Assembly (NCBI GenBank): GCA_947303945.1
Contig: CAMYZS010000006.1
Location: 1-60,592, forward strand
DNA length: 60,592 nt
Direction: 5' to 3'
DNA from: an uncultured Candidatus Saccharibacteria bacterium
GTDB lineage: Bacteria; Patescibacteriota; Saccharimonadia; Saccharimonadales; Saccharimonadaceae
Both the position numbers and the translations under genes were made by a program. This document shows positions 10,670-55,373 of the stretch, piece after piece; positions within the stretch are counted from its first letter, which is position 1; the number at the start of each line of letters is the position of its first letter. The notes under the pieces were generated by a model. The model saw nothing but the letters and a program-made list of their open reading frames with translations. It searched no databases and had not been told where the DNA came from.

Positions 10670-13411
10670 ATGAAGGTTCTTGCGGAAGATTGGCTTGCTC
10701 ATTATGGAACTCCTCAGGAGTTCGATGGAGATCCACATGGTTCAGGTAGATATCGTCAAGGTTCTGGTGATAATCCTTATCAACATGCTCGAGACTTTAA
10801 AGACCGAGTTGCTGCGATAAAAAGGGAGAATCCTGGAATAAAAGAAAAAGAGCTCGTTAAGTATCTTATTGATGACGGTTATGGCGATGAAGTTGAAGAT
10901 GAGAATGGAAACAAAAAGAGAGAGCTTTCTATTCGTACATATCGTCAAATGATTACTAAAGCGAAAGCTGAAATCGATGCCGAAGATTATCGTAGGGCTA
11001 AGGTACTTCATGATGAACGTCAATGGTCCTATGAGGCAATTGGTAAAGAGCTGGGTCGTTCAGAATCCGGTGTCCGACAACTTTTGCAAAGAGACGCTGA
11101 ATTGAAAGCTAAGCGAATCAACACGACAGCCGATATGCTTAGAGAATCTTTGAATAGTCGCGGTGGATTTATTGATGTCGGTGCATATTCCGAAATGTAC
11201 ATAGGTGTCGGTCGAAGCAATCTTGATGCTGCCGTTAAGCAGTTGCATGATGAAGGATACGCGGTTATTAACGGTTCGGTTCGTCAGGTATTTGGACAGG
11301 GAAATACTACAGTTAAGGTCATCTGCCCTCCAGGAACGACAAAAGGCGAAGTGTTCAATCATTTTGACCAGATTCGTTTGCCGGTTGATATTCATGTCGA
11401 TGAGGACGGAAATCCTAAAAAACTTAGACCTGTCGAAAGTGTTTCGTCAGAACGAGTTCAAATTAAGTATGCGGAGGATGGCGGTGTTGCTAAAGACGGC
11501 GTTATCGAGCTTCGTCGCGGTGTTTCTGATATTGACCTCGGTAATTCGAATTATGCTCAGGTTCGAATTGCCGTTGATGGAACGCACTACCTTAAAGGTA
11601 TGGCCGTTTATGCTGACGACTTACCTGATGGAGTTGATATTCGTTTTAACACTAATAAGCATGTGGGCACTCCATTAAAAGACGTCTTGAAGCCAATGCA
11701 AGATCCGTCAAATGAGACGAATCCATTTGGTGCATCCATCGTTAGTCAGCGAGGAGTTCTCAACATCGTTAATGAAGAAGGCGATTGGAGCAAATGGTCA
11801 AAAACTTTGTCGTCTCAATTCTTGTCTAAACAGTTTGAACAGACGGCGAAGCGTCAGCTTAAGTTGACTGCGGATATTTCTAGAGCAGAGTTTGATGACA
11901 TCAAGTCGTTGACGAATCCGACACTTAAAAGATATTTGCTTCAGCAATTTGCAAATAGTTGCGACGCCGATGCCGTTCATCTTAAAGCCGTTCGTCTTCC
12001 AGGACAGACGCAAAAAGTTCTTTTACCTCTTCCTGATATTGCTGAAAACAAATGCTATTGTCCTAGTCTTCCCAATGGTACAGAAGTGGCCCTGGTCAGA
12101 TATCCGCATGGTGGCGTTTTTGAGATTCCAAAACTTATTGTTGATAACAACAATCAAGAAGGGAAAAAGATATTTGGAAATGCTCAAGATGCCATAGGCA
12201 TTTCGCCAAAAGCTGCTGGTATTCTTTCTGGAGCAGACTTTGATGGCGACACAGCAATGGTTCTTCCGATAACAAAGCCTGATGGTACTCCAATTATTAA
12301 AATTAAGACCGCAAAACCATTAGAAGGGCTTAAAGATTTTGAGCCAAAAGAAATGTATCGAGGAGACCATCTTCCTGAAAAAGATTTGATGAAGAAGACT
12401 CGTGTTCAGACAGAAATGGGAATGATATCTAATCTGATTACGGACATGACGATACAGGGCGCAACTGATGAGGAATTGGCTCGAGCTGTTCGGCATTCTA
12501 TGGTTGTAATCGATGCTCATAAGCATAAGCTGGATTATAAAGCATCTGCGAGAGATAATCGTATTGCAGAATTGAAGAAGAAGTATCAGCCAAACGGTGG
12601 GGCGAGTACAGTTATATCTTCTGCAAAGAGTCGCACTTATTATTATGACCGACGAGAAAAAGCTGTGTCTAAACTTACCCCAGAAGAGCGAGAGCGTTGG
12701 GAACGCGGCGAAATAATATGGGAGCCTACCGGTAAAATGGTTTATAACAAGACTACCGGACAATACGACAAGCCTATGCAACATCGTAGTACAAAGATGT
12801 ATGAAACTTCCGATGCGTATGATCTTTCTTCAGGTATGGCGATTGAGAAATATTATGCAGATTATGCAAATTCTATGAAAGCCCTTGCCAATGAAGCTCG
12901 TGCCGAACTTCGCAGGACTCCTAAAATGGAATATAGTCCGACTGCTAAGAAAACGTATTCTGAAGAAGTTGCTTCTCTTAACAGTAAGTTGAAGACTGCT
13001 CAGATGAATGCCCCACTTGAGCGAAAAGCCCAGACTCTTGCAAACTCTACTCTCAGGGTTGAATTTGCAGACCATCCGGAATACGATGACGGTCAAAAGA
13101 AAAAGGCGAAAAGTAGGCATTTGGAAGCGGCCAGGAATGCTGTCGGTGCTGGTAAAGAAAAGATCGACATAGAAGACCGTGAGTGGGAGGCTATACAGGC
13201 TGGCGCTATATCGGACTCTAAGGCTCTAGAAATTTTCTCAAATTCAGATTCCAAATTAATCAGACAGCGTGCCATGCCTAGAGCCAACTCAATCAGTCAG
13301 GCCAAGCTTTCTAAAGCTAGAGCTCTTCTTAAGAATGATGCATGGACTTGGGCTGAAGTGGCCGAGATGCTCGGCGTCTCCGTATCAGGTCTTCAAAATG
13401 CTCTTGGTTGA
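10670..13411 (+). CDS. Candidate single-chain two-barrel (DFDGD) RNA polymerase
   Basis: The 913-aa protein contains GADFDGDTAMV with D523, D525 and D527, the metal-binding loop of the RNA polymerase beta' subunit and of single-chain two-barrel polymerases such as SPbeta YonO. About 45 residues upstream, VRYPHGGVFEIP (R477, P479, H480) matches the beta' NRxPxxH segment in order and spacing. A conserved-looking lysine-rich block (GDWSKWSKTLSSQ, then LSKQ, from 371) could belong to the first barrel. HTH segments lie near residues 117-142 and 885-910. The N-terminus (HYGTP, then GSGRY, NPYQH) recalls tags on neighbouring structural proteins. Activity is inferred from motifs. Confidence 0.7.
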   Translation: MKVLAEDWLAHYGTPQEFDGDPHGSGRYRQGSGDNPYQHARDFKDRVAAIKRENPGIKEKELVKYLIDDGYGDEVEDENGNKKRELSIRTYRQMITKAKAEIDAEDYRRAKVLHDERQWSYEAIGKELGRSESGVRQLLQRDAELKAKRINTTADMLRESLNSRGGFIDVGAYSEMYIGVGRSNLDAAVKQLHDEGYAVINGSVRQVFGQGNTTVKVICPPGTTKGEVFNHFDQIRLPVDIHVDEDGNPKKLRPVESVSSERVQIKYAEDGGVAKDGVIELRRGVSDIDLGNSNYAQVRIAVDGTHYLKGMAVYADDLPDGVDIRFNTNKHVGTPLKDVLKPMQDPSNETNPFGASIVSQRGVLNIVNEEGDWSKWSKTLSSQFLSKQFEQTAKRQLKLTADISRAEFDDIKSLTNPTLKRYLLQQFANSCDADAVHLKAVRLPGQTQKVLLPLPDIAENKCYCPSLPNGTEVALVRYPHGGVFEIPKLIVDNNNQEGKKIFGNAQDAIGISPKAAGILSGADFDGDTAMVLPITKPDGTPIIKIKTAKPLEGLKDFEPKEMYRGDHLPEKDLMKKTRVQTEMGMISNLITDMTIQGATDEELARAVRHSMVVIDAHKHKLDYKASARDNRIAELKKKYQPNGGASTVISSAKSRTYYYDRREKAVSKLTPEERERWERGEIIWEPTGKMVYNKTTGQYDKPMQHRSTKMYETSDAYDLSSGMAIEKYYADYANSMKALANEARAELRRTPKMEYSPTAKKTYSEEVASLNSKLKTAQMNAPLERKAQTLANSTLRVEFADHPEYDDGQKKKAKSRHLEAARNAVGAGKEKIDIEDREWEAIQAGAISDSKALEIFSNSDSKLIRQRAMPRANSISQAKLSKARALLKNDAWTWAEVAEMLGVSVSGLQNALG

Positions 13412-25070: not shown

Positions 25071-25154
25071 GGGGATGTGGCGGAATGGCAGACGCAGGAG
25101 ACTTAAAATCTCTCGACTTTGGTCATGAGGGTTCGAATCCCTCCATCCCCACCA
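25071..25154 (+). tRNA. tRNA-Leu(UAA)
   Basis: Acceptor GGGGATG/CATCCCC; anticodon loop CTTAAAA gives UAA; there is a long class II variable arm; the T-loop is GGTTCGAATCC. CCA is encoded (25152-25154). Confidence 0.95.
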
Positions 25155-25155
25155 A

Positions 25156-25230
25156 GCCCTTGTAGCATAAAGGTAAGTGCAGCCGGCTCATAACCGGTGG
25201 ATCAAGGTTCGAGTCCTTGCTGGGGCACCA
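25156..25230 (+). tRNA. tRNA-Met(CAU)
   Basis: Anticodon loop CTCATAA gives CAU on a GCCGG/CCGGT stem; acceptor GCCC/GGGC with a wobble and one T-T mismatch inside; CCA encoded. Elongator Met is most likely; an Ile(CAU) tRNA needing lysidine cannot be excluded. Confidence 0.9.
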
Positions 25231-25233
25231 TAT

Positions 25234-25310
25234 GGGCCCGTAGCTCAGTAGGTTAGAGCAGGGGACTTTTAATCCCAAGGTCATGGGTTCGATTCCCATC
25301 GGGCCCACCA
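25234..25310 (+). tRNA. tRNA-Lys(UUU)
   Basis: Acceptor GGGCCCG/CGGGCCC, anticodon loop CTTTTAA gives UUU, T-loop GGTTCGATTCC, CCA encoded. Confidence 0.95.
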
Positions 25311-51308: not shown

Positions 51309-51608
51309 ATGAAGCTGCCTTGGAAGAAGGAGAAGGACCCGATCGAGCTGGAGAAGGAAGAACTTGCTCGAGCTTGGGCGGTCGAGGACCTCAATTCCGA
51401 GAAGCGACAGGCATTGATTGAGCGTTATATGGCGTTGGATAGCCAGCAGCTTGAGCACGAGAAGATTCGTGCTGAGCATGGCATCGACGGCAAGACGATT
51501 CTATCAAATGGAGTGACTATCGGATTGGCGTTGCTCACGCTCAACTATGAAAAGTTCGACATTGTTCGCTCGAAAGTGGCGAACTTCTGGTTGAGGCGTC
51601 GACAGTAA
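51309..51608 (+). CDS. Small charged helical protein
   Basis: The 99-aa protein begins MKLPWKKEKDPIELEKEEL, is charged and helical to about 65, then has a weakly hydrophobic stretch (ILSNGVTIGLALLTL) that may touch a membrane. ATG 51309 follows AGAAAGGGG. Single-gene unit. Function unknown. Confidence 0.75.
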   Translation: MKLPWKKEKDPIELEKEELARAWAVEDLNSEKRQALIERYMALDSQQLEHEKIRAEHGIDGKTILSNGVTIGLALLTLNYEKFDIVRSKVANFWLRRRQ

Positions 51609-51721: not shown

Positions 51722-51958
51722 ATGGTAGTTGTTACTTGTATTGCGATGATTCTGTTCACCATTGCGGCACTCGTTACATCTATCGGCATTGGACTTGCCG
51801 GTCTCGGCGTGTTCATATGGACGTTTAGCGCGGTATATGACATGGACGAAATCGGGTTCCATCCGCCGATTGTATGGAACGACGGGTCGATTTGGGTGAA
51901 GCATTCGTCGAAGCACGTGACTCTCAAGAAGAATTCTGAAGACGAGAACGACCAATAG
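51722..51958 (+). CDS. Small membrane protein
   Basis: The 78-aa protein has a long hydrophobic N-terminal stretch (about 3-38, one or two membrane spans) and a charged cytoplasmic or external tail. AAGGAG precedes ATG 51722. Function unknown; small early membrane proteins often act on the host envelope. Confidence 0.75.
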   Translation: MVVVTCIAMILFTIAALVTSIGIGLAGLGVFIWTFSAVYDMDEIGFHPPIVWNDGSIWVKHSSKHVTLKKNSEDENDQ

Positions 51959-51964
51959 CTTTCT

Positions 51965-51995
51965 AGGGGATTGGGCGCACGCCCTTTCCCTTTTA
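51965..51995 (+). terminator. Terminator
   Basis: AGGG..CCCT encloses GGGCG/CGCCC (51965-51990), then TTTTATTTTT. A close relative lies at 55309. Confidence 0.8.
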
Positions 51996-51996
51996 T

Positions 51997-52016
51997 TTTT
52001 ACACACCCCTTAATGG
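51997..52016 (+). promoter_or_regulatory. Repeated phage element, copy 8
   Basis: TTTTACAC-ACCC-CTTAATGG; its last GG is the first GG of the tRNA-like fold. No ORF lies before the next element. Confidence 0.75.
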
Positions 52017-52079
52017 AAAGATTGGTGTAATTGGTAACACACGCATTGGCGAGTTGCAGGTTCGAATCCTGTTCTTTCT
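52015..52079 (+). ncRNA. tRNA-like RNA with shortened anticodon arm
   Basis: Acceptor GGAAAGA (52015-52021) pairs with TCTTTCT (52073-52079) over 7 bp. D-arm GTGT/ACAC (52025-52040) has GG in its loop. T-arm GCAGG-TTCGAAT-CCTGT (52056-52072) joins the acceptor in exact tRNA geometry. Where 17 bases of anticodon arm should be, only CGC-ATTG-GCG (52042-52051) fits, and no CCA is encoded. It cannot be a normal decoding tRNA as it stands. Confidence 0.65.
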
Positions 52080-52084
52080 TTTAT

Positions 52085-52104
52085 TTTTACACATTATTTA
52101 ATGA
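52085..52104 (+). promoter_or_regulatory. Repeated phage element, copy 9
   Basis: TTTTACAC-ATTA-TTTAATGA; GAAGAC/GTCTTC hairpin (52103-52120) follows; drives the gene at 52142. Confidence 0.75.
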
Positions 52105-52141: not shown

Positions 52142-52438
52142 ATGAAGAAGTTTATGGTTTGCGTTGCTATCGTGGCCGCTTTCGTCGCGGGTTTTGCCGC
52201 CAAGGGCTTCAGCCCTGAGTGGGACTACCAGCGCGGAATCGGTGCAACGGAAGTTCGCGCCGACTACGACCTCTCCATCGGTGGGGACTCGTGCTATTAC
52301 GAAATCATATTGTGGGACGAGGGGTATATGAATTACGAGATCGTCGAGCGTGGTATCTGCCACAGGTCCGAGCTTGAAGAGCTCAGCGAGACTGCTGGGC
52401 TTTACGAGACGGTCTTTGAGGCTGGTTACCGTCGCTAG
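52142..52438 (+). CDS. Small exported or membrane-anchored protein
   Basis: The 98-aa protein has an N-terminal signal-like segment (MKKFMVCVAIVAAFVAGFAAKG) followed by an acidic domain with SCYYEIILWDEGYMNYEIVERG. No lipobox is present. Either signal cleavage near AAKG or anchoring is possible. GAAAGGA precedes ATG 52142. Confidence 0.75.
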   Translation: MKKFMVCVAIVAAFVAGFAAKGFSPEWDYQRGIGATEVRADYDLSIGGDSCYYEIILWDEGYMNYEIVERGICHRSELEELSETAGLYETVFEAGYRR

Positions 52439-55308: not shown

Positions 55309-55344
55309 TCCAATAGGGATCGGGCACACGCCCTTTCCCTTTTT
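55309..55344 (+). terminator. Terminator
   Basis: AGGG..CCCT encloses GGGC/GCCC, then TTTTTATTT; nearly the same sequence as the terminator at 51965. Confidence 0.8.
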
Positions 55345-55373
55345 ATTTCGGCTAGAGGAGAGAAAGGACCGAC

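Follow-up and report, generated by a model that had tools for sequence, protein, structure and literature searches.

A tRNA-like RNA with a shortened anticodon arm in phages with a YonO-like RNA polymerase, probably a working tRNA mimic

It has long been asked why phages carry tRNA genes, the unusual ones in particular. The tRNA-like domain of tmRNA presents a tRNA elbow without a decoding anticodon. Phage tRNAs have been proposed to evade tRNA-targeting defences through changes in the anticodon loop (PMC10264068), and among the enzymes that grip tRNA at its elbow are RNase P, RNase Z, the CCA-adding enzyme, TruB and Dus (PMC4810234). The tRNA-like module of the bacterial Y RNA YrlA binds PNPase and is modified by TruB and DusA (PMC8394870). 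The pneumococcal small RNA F41 was verified by northern blot and its deletion attenuated disease in mice (PMC3395615). Two further papers describe it as accessory, being present in fewer than 12 strains (PMC12323649), and report that RNase Z and Cbf1 were recovered from pneumococcal lysate with SpF41 as bait, that the baits of the same experiment enriched degradosome enzymes including PNPase, and that RNase Z was also pulled down by csRNAs, which are not tRNA-like (PMC7196914). The SPbeta polymerase transcribes the late genes of that phage from a start mapped upstream of yonK, its promoter sequence being undetermined at that time (PMC5467207). In open-licence full texts, our literature search surfaced no description of a phage tRNA-like family lacking the anticodon arm.

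The stretch of DNA analysed here, referred to as the window, is a 60.6-kb phage contig (60,592 nucleotides, with terminase, portal, capsid maturation protease and primase-polymerase) that belongs to a 1.29-Mb bacterial assembly; the phage is of the gut type. As judged from sequence comparison, positions 52015–52079 very probably encode a member of a conserved family of stand-alone, functional, non-decoding RNAs in phages with a YonO-like polymerase.

The RNA and its transcription unit

The features of the locus and the polymerase of the same genome are as follows.

10670–13411, + strand: YonO-like single-chain RNA polymerase (phrog_4291, 1017 bits)
51309–51608, + strand: 99-aa ORF upstream of the RNA, a conserved neighbour (tblastn finds homologues close to the RNA in relatives G002, G004, G007 and G010)
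51966–51997, + strand: terminator-like hairpin (GGGCGCACGCCC) and T-rich tract, closing the preceding gene and insulating the RNA unit (from the sequence)
51998–52016, + strand: promoter-like element TTTACACACCCCTTAATGG ahead of the tRNA-like RNA (exact match to the repeated box)
52015–52079, + strand: tRNA-like RNA of 65 nt with a shortened anticodon arm (RF00005, 36.7 bits; family model R1, 45.6 bits, E = 1.7e-13)
52015–52021, + strand: acceptor 5' strand, GGAAAGA (read from the sequence)
52022–52024, + strand: linker TTG, acceptor to D arm (read from the sequence)
52025–52040, + strand: D arm, GTGT-AATTGGTA-ACAC (sequence; compensatory GTTT/AAAC and GCTC/GAGC in relatives)
52041, + strand: single A between D arm and mini-arm (read from the sequence)
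52042–52051, + strand: mini-hairpin of 10 bases, CGC-ATTG-GCG, at the site of the 17-base anticodon arm (sequence; 8–16 bases in relatives)
52052–52055, + strand: variable region AGTT (read from the sequence)
52056–52072, + strand: T arm, GCAGG-TTCGAAT-CCTGT (sequence and Rfam alignment; covariation in relatives)
52073–52079, + strand: acceptor 3' strand TCTTTCT, then T TTTATTTTT (read from the sequence)
52080–52090, + strand: U-rich tract 3' of the acceptor helix, where the transcript probably ends (sequence; same layout in relatives)
52086–52104, + strand: next promoter-like element, ahead of the ORF at 52142 (box search)
52142–52438, + strand: 98-aa ORF downstream of the RNA, a conserved neighbour that by eye resembles a secreted protein (60% identical homologue downstream of the RNA in G004)

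Reading the sequence together with the match to RF00005 bears out the initial annotation in its description of a stand-alone 65-base fold that has 10 bases in place of the 17-base anticodon arm and no CCA, in a stretch without an ORF. The acceptor (7 bp), D (4 bp) and T (5 bp) helices are all present; they had been called perfect, which holds for their presence, while two of the pairs are G.U (G1.U72 and the outer pair of the T stem) and the linker from acceptor to D arm has 3 nt rather than 2. The window copy thus has the elbow residues and cloverleaf helices of a tRNA and lacks the decodable anticodon arm (17 bases with a 7-nt loop) of a decoding one. No CCA end is encoded, no convincing ORF was found from the stop at 51958 to the ATG at 52142, and the 98-aa ORF that begins there gave no Pfam match.

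The Rfam tRNA model scores the window copy above its cut-off of 29 bits (E = 2.2e-6 across the whole 1.29-Mb assembly), and the remaining 49 tRNA matches in that assembly are all longer. Under the same model the phage's own three tRNAs score 61–76 bits versus 36.7 for the short-arm RNA. Those three, Leu-TAA, Met-CAT and Lys-TTT, are ordinary phage tRNAs clustered at 25071–25310, directly after the major tail protein gene. ARAGORN run on the window reported only these three tRNAs at 25 kb and missed the RNA at 52015–52079; its tmRNA search of the window reported none. The minimum-energy fold of the window copy is the cloverleaf, its folding energy is unremarkable (z = -0.95), and the mini-hairpin taken alone is not significant (P = 0.38, shuffle test). 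It is therefore comparison with relatives, not thermodynamics, that singles out the window copy.

The promoter-like element belongs to a repeated box, TTTACAC-N5-TTAATGR, which has 23 matches in the window with up to three mismatches versus 6.1 expected. Sixteen copies are near consensus, mostly ahead of small ORFs, and many small genes between about 47 and 58 kb have the box upstream. The copy at 51998–52016 precedes the cloverleaf instead of an ORF, its end overlaps the first bases of the RNA, and the U-rich tract of the unit runs into the next box. The 33-bp terminator-like stretch at 51967–51999 is repeated at 55316–55348 with 91% identity. The YonO-like polymerase contains a sigma-70 region-4-like helix-turn-helix (HTH; PF08281, aa 105–141, 30.8 bits) that may allow unaided reading of the TTTACAC-N5-TTAATG element, which makes the polymerase a candidate reader of the box. 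From co-occurrence we infer a tie between box and polymerase: among pattern-scan contigs, those with the box ahead of a short-arm RNA carry phrog_4291 where they are long enough, and the others, except G029, lack it.

Relatives and their conservation

Relatives were gathered by running the tRNA model on records holding a related polymerase and by two pattern scans. In the related-polymerase records, short tRNA-like RNAs sit just 3' of a similar promoter box, and the window has the same pairing of box upstream of the RNA and phrog_4291 polymerase in the genome. Fifteen relatives, without the window, served to build a covariance model (A2, R1), which gave 45.6 bits (E = 1.7e-13) for the window copy. 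Besides the window, R1 finds copies in about 21 other phages or contigs, namely FP_oengus, ReqiPepy6, ReqiPoco6, CHPC971, P092 (two copies), OhMyWard and some 15 IMG/VR contigs. No copy was found by R1 in the Streptomyces, Arthrobacter and Curtobacterium records tested, in Gordonia Perkunas or in SPbeta. Among 23 records longer than 50 kb that were selected on the polymerase only, 9 have the RNA and 14 do not, so that it is dispensable in this phage group.

The locus itself had no match in a direct DNA search against 50,697 phage records. The DNA search for the unit returned 34 Gordonia, 6 Lactococcus and 4 Rhodococcus records, GenBank and RefSeq copies being counted apart, with 60–100% identity among the Gordonia records. 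Carriers of the unit include Lactococcus P078 and P162, Faecalibacterium FP_oengus, and rumen and gut phages. In the records inspected the RNA is unannotated, except for a 'tRNA-OTHER' label in Rhodococcus ReqiPoco6 and ReqiPepy6.

With the predicted start taken as the first purine after TATAAT, TATTAT or TTAAT, it lies 0–10 nt from the 7-bp acceptor in most copies; starts of the window copy, G002, G025 and G029 were read by eye, and G029 has no clear box. The proposal that the 5' end of the RNA coincides with the start site is thus supported across the family. Where extra 5' bases are present (for example in ReqiPepy6, OhMyWard and CHPC971), they pair with the bases just before the U-run, giving a closing helix of 7 to more than 15 bp. 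In this model, the RNA would be a closed fold from predicted first base to predicted terminator.

In the 15-member alignment, 92.1% of pair cells hold standard pairs versus 67.8% in shuffles, and 68 cells are changed on both sides versus 22.5; part of the structural conservation in these figures comes from having found members by the tRNA model or tRNA-like patterns. The pattern scans did not demand acceptor pairing, and tRNA-biased recruitment does not account for the double changes. Slid versions of the alignment pair at 35–53%. Covariation is present in all three helices; the random loss of pairing that would mark decay is not seen. The columns with little or no variation are those of the elbow (U8, A14, G18, G19, A21, G53, T54, C56, G57, A58 and C61 in tRNA numbering), and the acceptor sequence and the hairpin at the anticodon position are variable. 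This hairpin has 8–16 bases in 23 copies, the G002 duplicate aside, with a mean stem of 3.8 bp versus 1.95 in shuffles (maximum 2.91; 0 of 2000 reached the observed value). No related copy has a normal 17-base arm, the longer duplicate in G002 being non-canonical. Gordonia phages keep a mini-arm CCGC-NCNA-GCGG while the T stem changes in concert (ATCGG/CCGAT, ACCGG/CCGGT, CCAGG/CCTGG), and the D stem is GTGT/ACAC in the window copy versus GTTT/AAAC in the syntenic G002 copy. Homologues of the 99-aa ORF flank the RNA in G002, G004, G007 and G010, and in G004 a homologue of the 98-aa ORF follows it. Judged by sequence, the simplest view of the window copy, whose arm has 10 bases, is that it is an orthologue of copies with arms of 8–14 bases, and such syntenic orthologues argue against a recent deletion in one phage.

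Two genomes carry an additional copy. In G002 the tRNA-like unit and its promoter occur as a tandem duplicate (L168, G002:C1:35967-36143), the second copy having a full-length yet non-canonical anticodon arm (CCGGAGCAACAAATGCATCGG). In the second copy in phage G010 (L164, G010:C1:46492-46558) the mini-arm is 5 bp long and capped by a UUCG tetraloop, and about 20 additional bases separate the closing helix from the D arm.

Beyond these phages, the short-arm pattern was found at 50 places in 84,980 species genomes, 16 of them with good helices; several of the 16 adjoin other tRNA genes and look like tRNA remnants. In 394 genomes of the host's family, the matches were the window copy and one other. 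Among the 121 short-arm matches listed from the second pattern scan, at least 82 combine a good T stem with six or more of seven acceptor pairs, the most frequent arm is 5 bp with a 4-nt loop, and 5 of 45 contigs tested carry a YonO-like polymerase; the remaining contigs may hold several unrelated things, tRNA remnants included. Many phages without this polymerase bear short-hairpin tRNA-likes, often of 5 bp with a tetraloop (viral contigs L267–L386); these are likely to be missed or mislabelled by tRNA finders that expect a 7-nt loop. In L316, L372 and L386 (also L377 and L383) the short-arm tRNA-like lies inside a longer closed fold of about 110–130 nt common to several contigs, which has a long outer helix (GATTGGTG...CACCAATC in L316) and an additional hairpin 3' of the acceptor. 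No TROVE gene was found in 40 contigs with such other short-arm tRNA-likes, including the L316-type folds.

Proposed function and alternatives

The conserved elbow and variable arm suggest that the RNA is probably a working tRNA mimic, not a broken tRNA. The best overall explanation is a trans-acting elbow mimic with host tRNA-binding proteins as partners, in which the RNA is a ligand or competitor at the elbow-binding sites of those proteins; we put its probability at about 0.5. The unit is compact, its parts being in order the phage promoter box, the predicted RNA start, the closing helix with the D arm, short hairpin and T arm inside it, and the U-rich end. The RNA would be made along with the small promoter-linked genes, would owe its stability to the closing helix, in which both ends lie hidden, and would offer the tRNA elbow in trans to host proteins that grip tRNA there. 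With no anticodon, it can neither decode nor be cut by anticodon nucleases. The partners of YrlA and SpF41 lead us to propose 3'-end and decay enzymes as the likeliest targets, such that host RNase Z, PNPase or YhaM/Cbf1-class enzymes might be occupied or redirected during infection. That the targets are this specific class, for 3'-end processing and turnover, is a tentative and rather unlikely refinement; the RNase Z lead is weak and its target uncertain, since csRNAs share RNase Z in the pull-down.

The main rival, which we consider unlikely, is an anti-defence decoy that occupies a host effector sensing the tRNA elbow or acceptor and so spares the real tRNAs; the other alternatives rank below it. 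A kept elbow without a cleavable anticodon loop suits a competitive inhibitor rather than a substrate, and the patchy distribution fits an arms-race gene. However, known anticodon nucleases require the very loop that is absent here, the members encode no CCA, and the acceptor helix is lengthened in most. The earlier idea of a decoy therefore survives in part: the RNA is no cleavable substitute for tRNA before anticodon nucleases, and could compete for elbow-gripping proteins. A primer-like role, also suggested for it, found no support, and no sign of a reverse transcriptase or primer-binding site was noticed in the features analysed here. Decay of a phage tRNA gene whose anticodon arm was deleted and which now drifts would agree with a score far below that of the phage's own tRNAs, and short-arm fragments adjoining intact tRNAs do exist in bacterial genomes. 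Against it, same-locus orthologues and far relatives retain short arms of differing length and three paired helices, double compensatory changes and an invariant elbow extend across phages of Actinobacteria and Firmicutes, and the D stems of the window and G002 differ with pairing kept. These short arms, elbows and compensated helices largely refute decay, which we rate as very improbable.

A partner RNA that binds the YonO-like polymerase or regulates it, in the way 6S RNA acts on the host polymerase, would explain why the judgeable pattern-scan contigs pairing a short-arm RNA with the phage promoter carry phrog_4291, a polymerase with its own sigma-like HTH. The 14 of 23 polymerase-selected records without the RNA, including the Streptomyces and Arthrobacter phages tested, the many phages with short-arm tRNA-likes and no such polymerase, and the missing copy in SPbeta, the source of YonO, make this improbable. 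Of similarly low probability is a cloverleaf serving only as a terminator or RNA-end protection without a partner in trans: the closing helix with its U-run is terminator-shaped and the unit is flanked by a terminator-like hairpin and the next promoter, but an invariant D–T elbow is needless for a terminator, the preceding unit in the window closes with a simple hairpin, and the RNA has its own promoter box and no convincing ORF. A Y RNA of the YrlA type, whose tRNA-like module adjoins a stem that holds the Ro60/Rsr ring protein, is scarcely credible. YrlA's paired-end stem and D/T/acceptor-like module do resemble the extended family members (PMC8394870), yet none of the 23 genomes or records in which a member occurs (the window assembly and 22 phage records) has a TROVE/Ro60 gene (PF05731), and the closing helix of the window copy has just 7 bp. 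Competition with tmRNA for SmpB was also considered, as both RNAs lack a decoding anticodon.

Returning to the elbow mimic, codon-supply explanations are inapplicable to these RNAs because they cannot decode. They are conserved in cultured Gordonia, Lactococcus and Rhodococcus phages, unannotated or labelled 'tRNA-OTHER', and form a class of structured phage RNA overlooked by a standard tRNA finder. A wider generalisation, which we hold to be somewhat doubtful, is that phages of many kinds encode anticodon-less tRNA mimics, SpF41 being one example, that bind elbow-recognising machinery or defence effectors. If this is true, phages control tRNA processing or immunity by RNA, not protein.

Comparison with known RNAs

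Canonical tRNA (RF00005) shares the acceptor, D and T helices and the elbow residues with the window RNA and differs in that the family has no decodable anticodon arm and no CCA, and in most relatives a closing helix longer than 7 bp. The 'tRNA-OTHER' genes of ReqiPoco6 and ReqiPepy6, annotated without explanation, are family members, with an arm of 16 bases (6 bp and a 4-nt loop) that is the longest in the phage family except for the G002 duplicate. Unlike tmRNA, the window RNA has no mRNA domain, tag or pseudoknots, and has a D stem. YrlA resembles the family in that its ends pair and that it has a module like the D, T and acceptor arms of tRNA (PMC8394870), but is 90–150 nt long versus 65 nt for the window RNA.

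Along with YrlA, the nearest known RNA is SpF41 (RF02435; Streptococcus pneumoniae TIGR4 F41/srn277), which has a closing helix, a hairpin with a 4-nt loop at the anticodon position, a UUCGAAU T loop and a U-run; of these helices and arms, the mini-arm, the T arm and the closing helix are all that the Rfam model shows. The G027 copy aligns to RF02435 over the full length (1–105; 45.3 bits, E = 1.6e-6), and its hairpin, T arm and closing helix all fall in register. Pneumococcal F41 appears to be a short-arm tRNA-like RNA, which ties this sRNA to the RNA family of the phages; in the source excerpts F41 is described as a chromosomal sRNA, unlike the phage family, and without a tRNA-like label. 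The gathering threshold of 52 bits is not reached by the window copy (22 bits), the G010 copy (34.4 bits) or the G027 copy (45.3 bits). The window RNA therefore falls outside the definitions of a functional tRNA, a Y RNA and tmRNA, and outside RF02435 by score, while sharing its layout.
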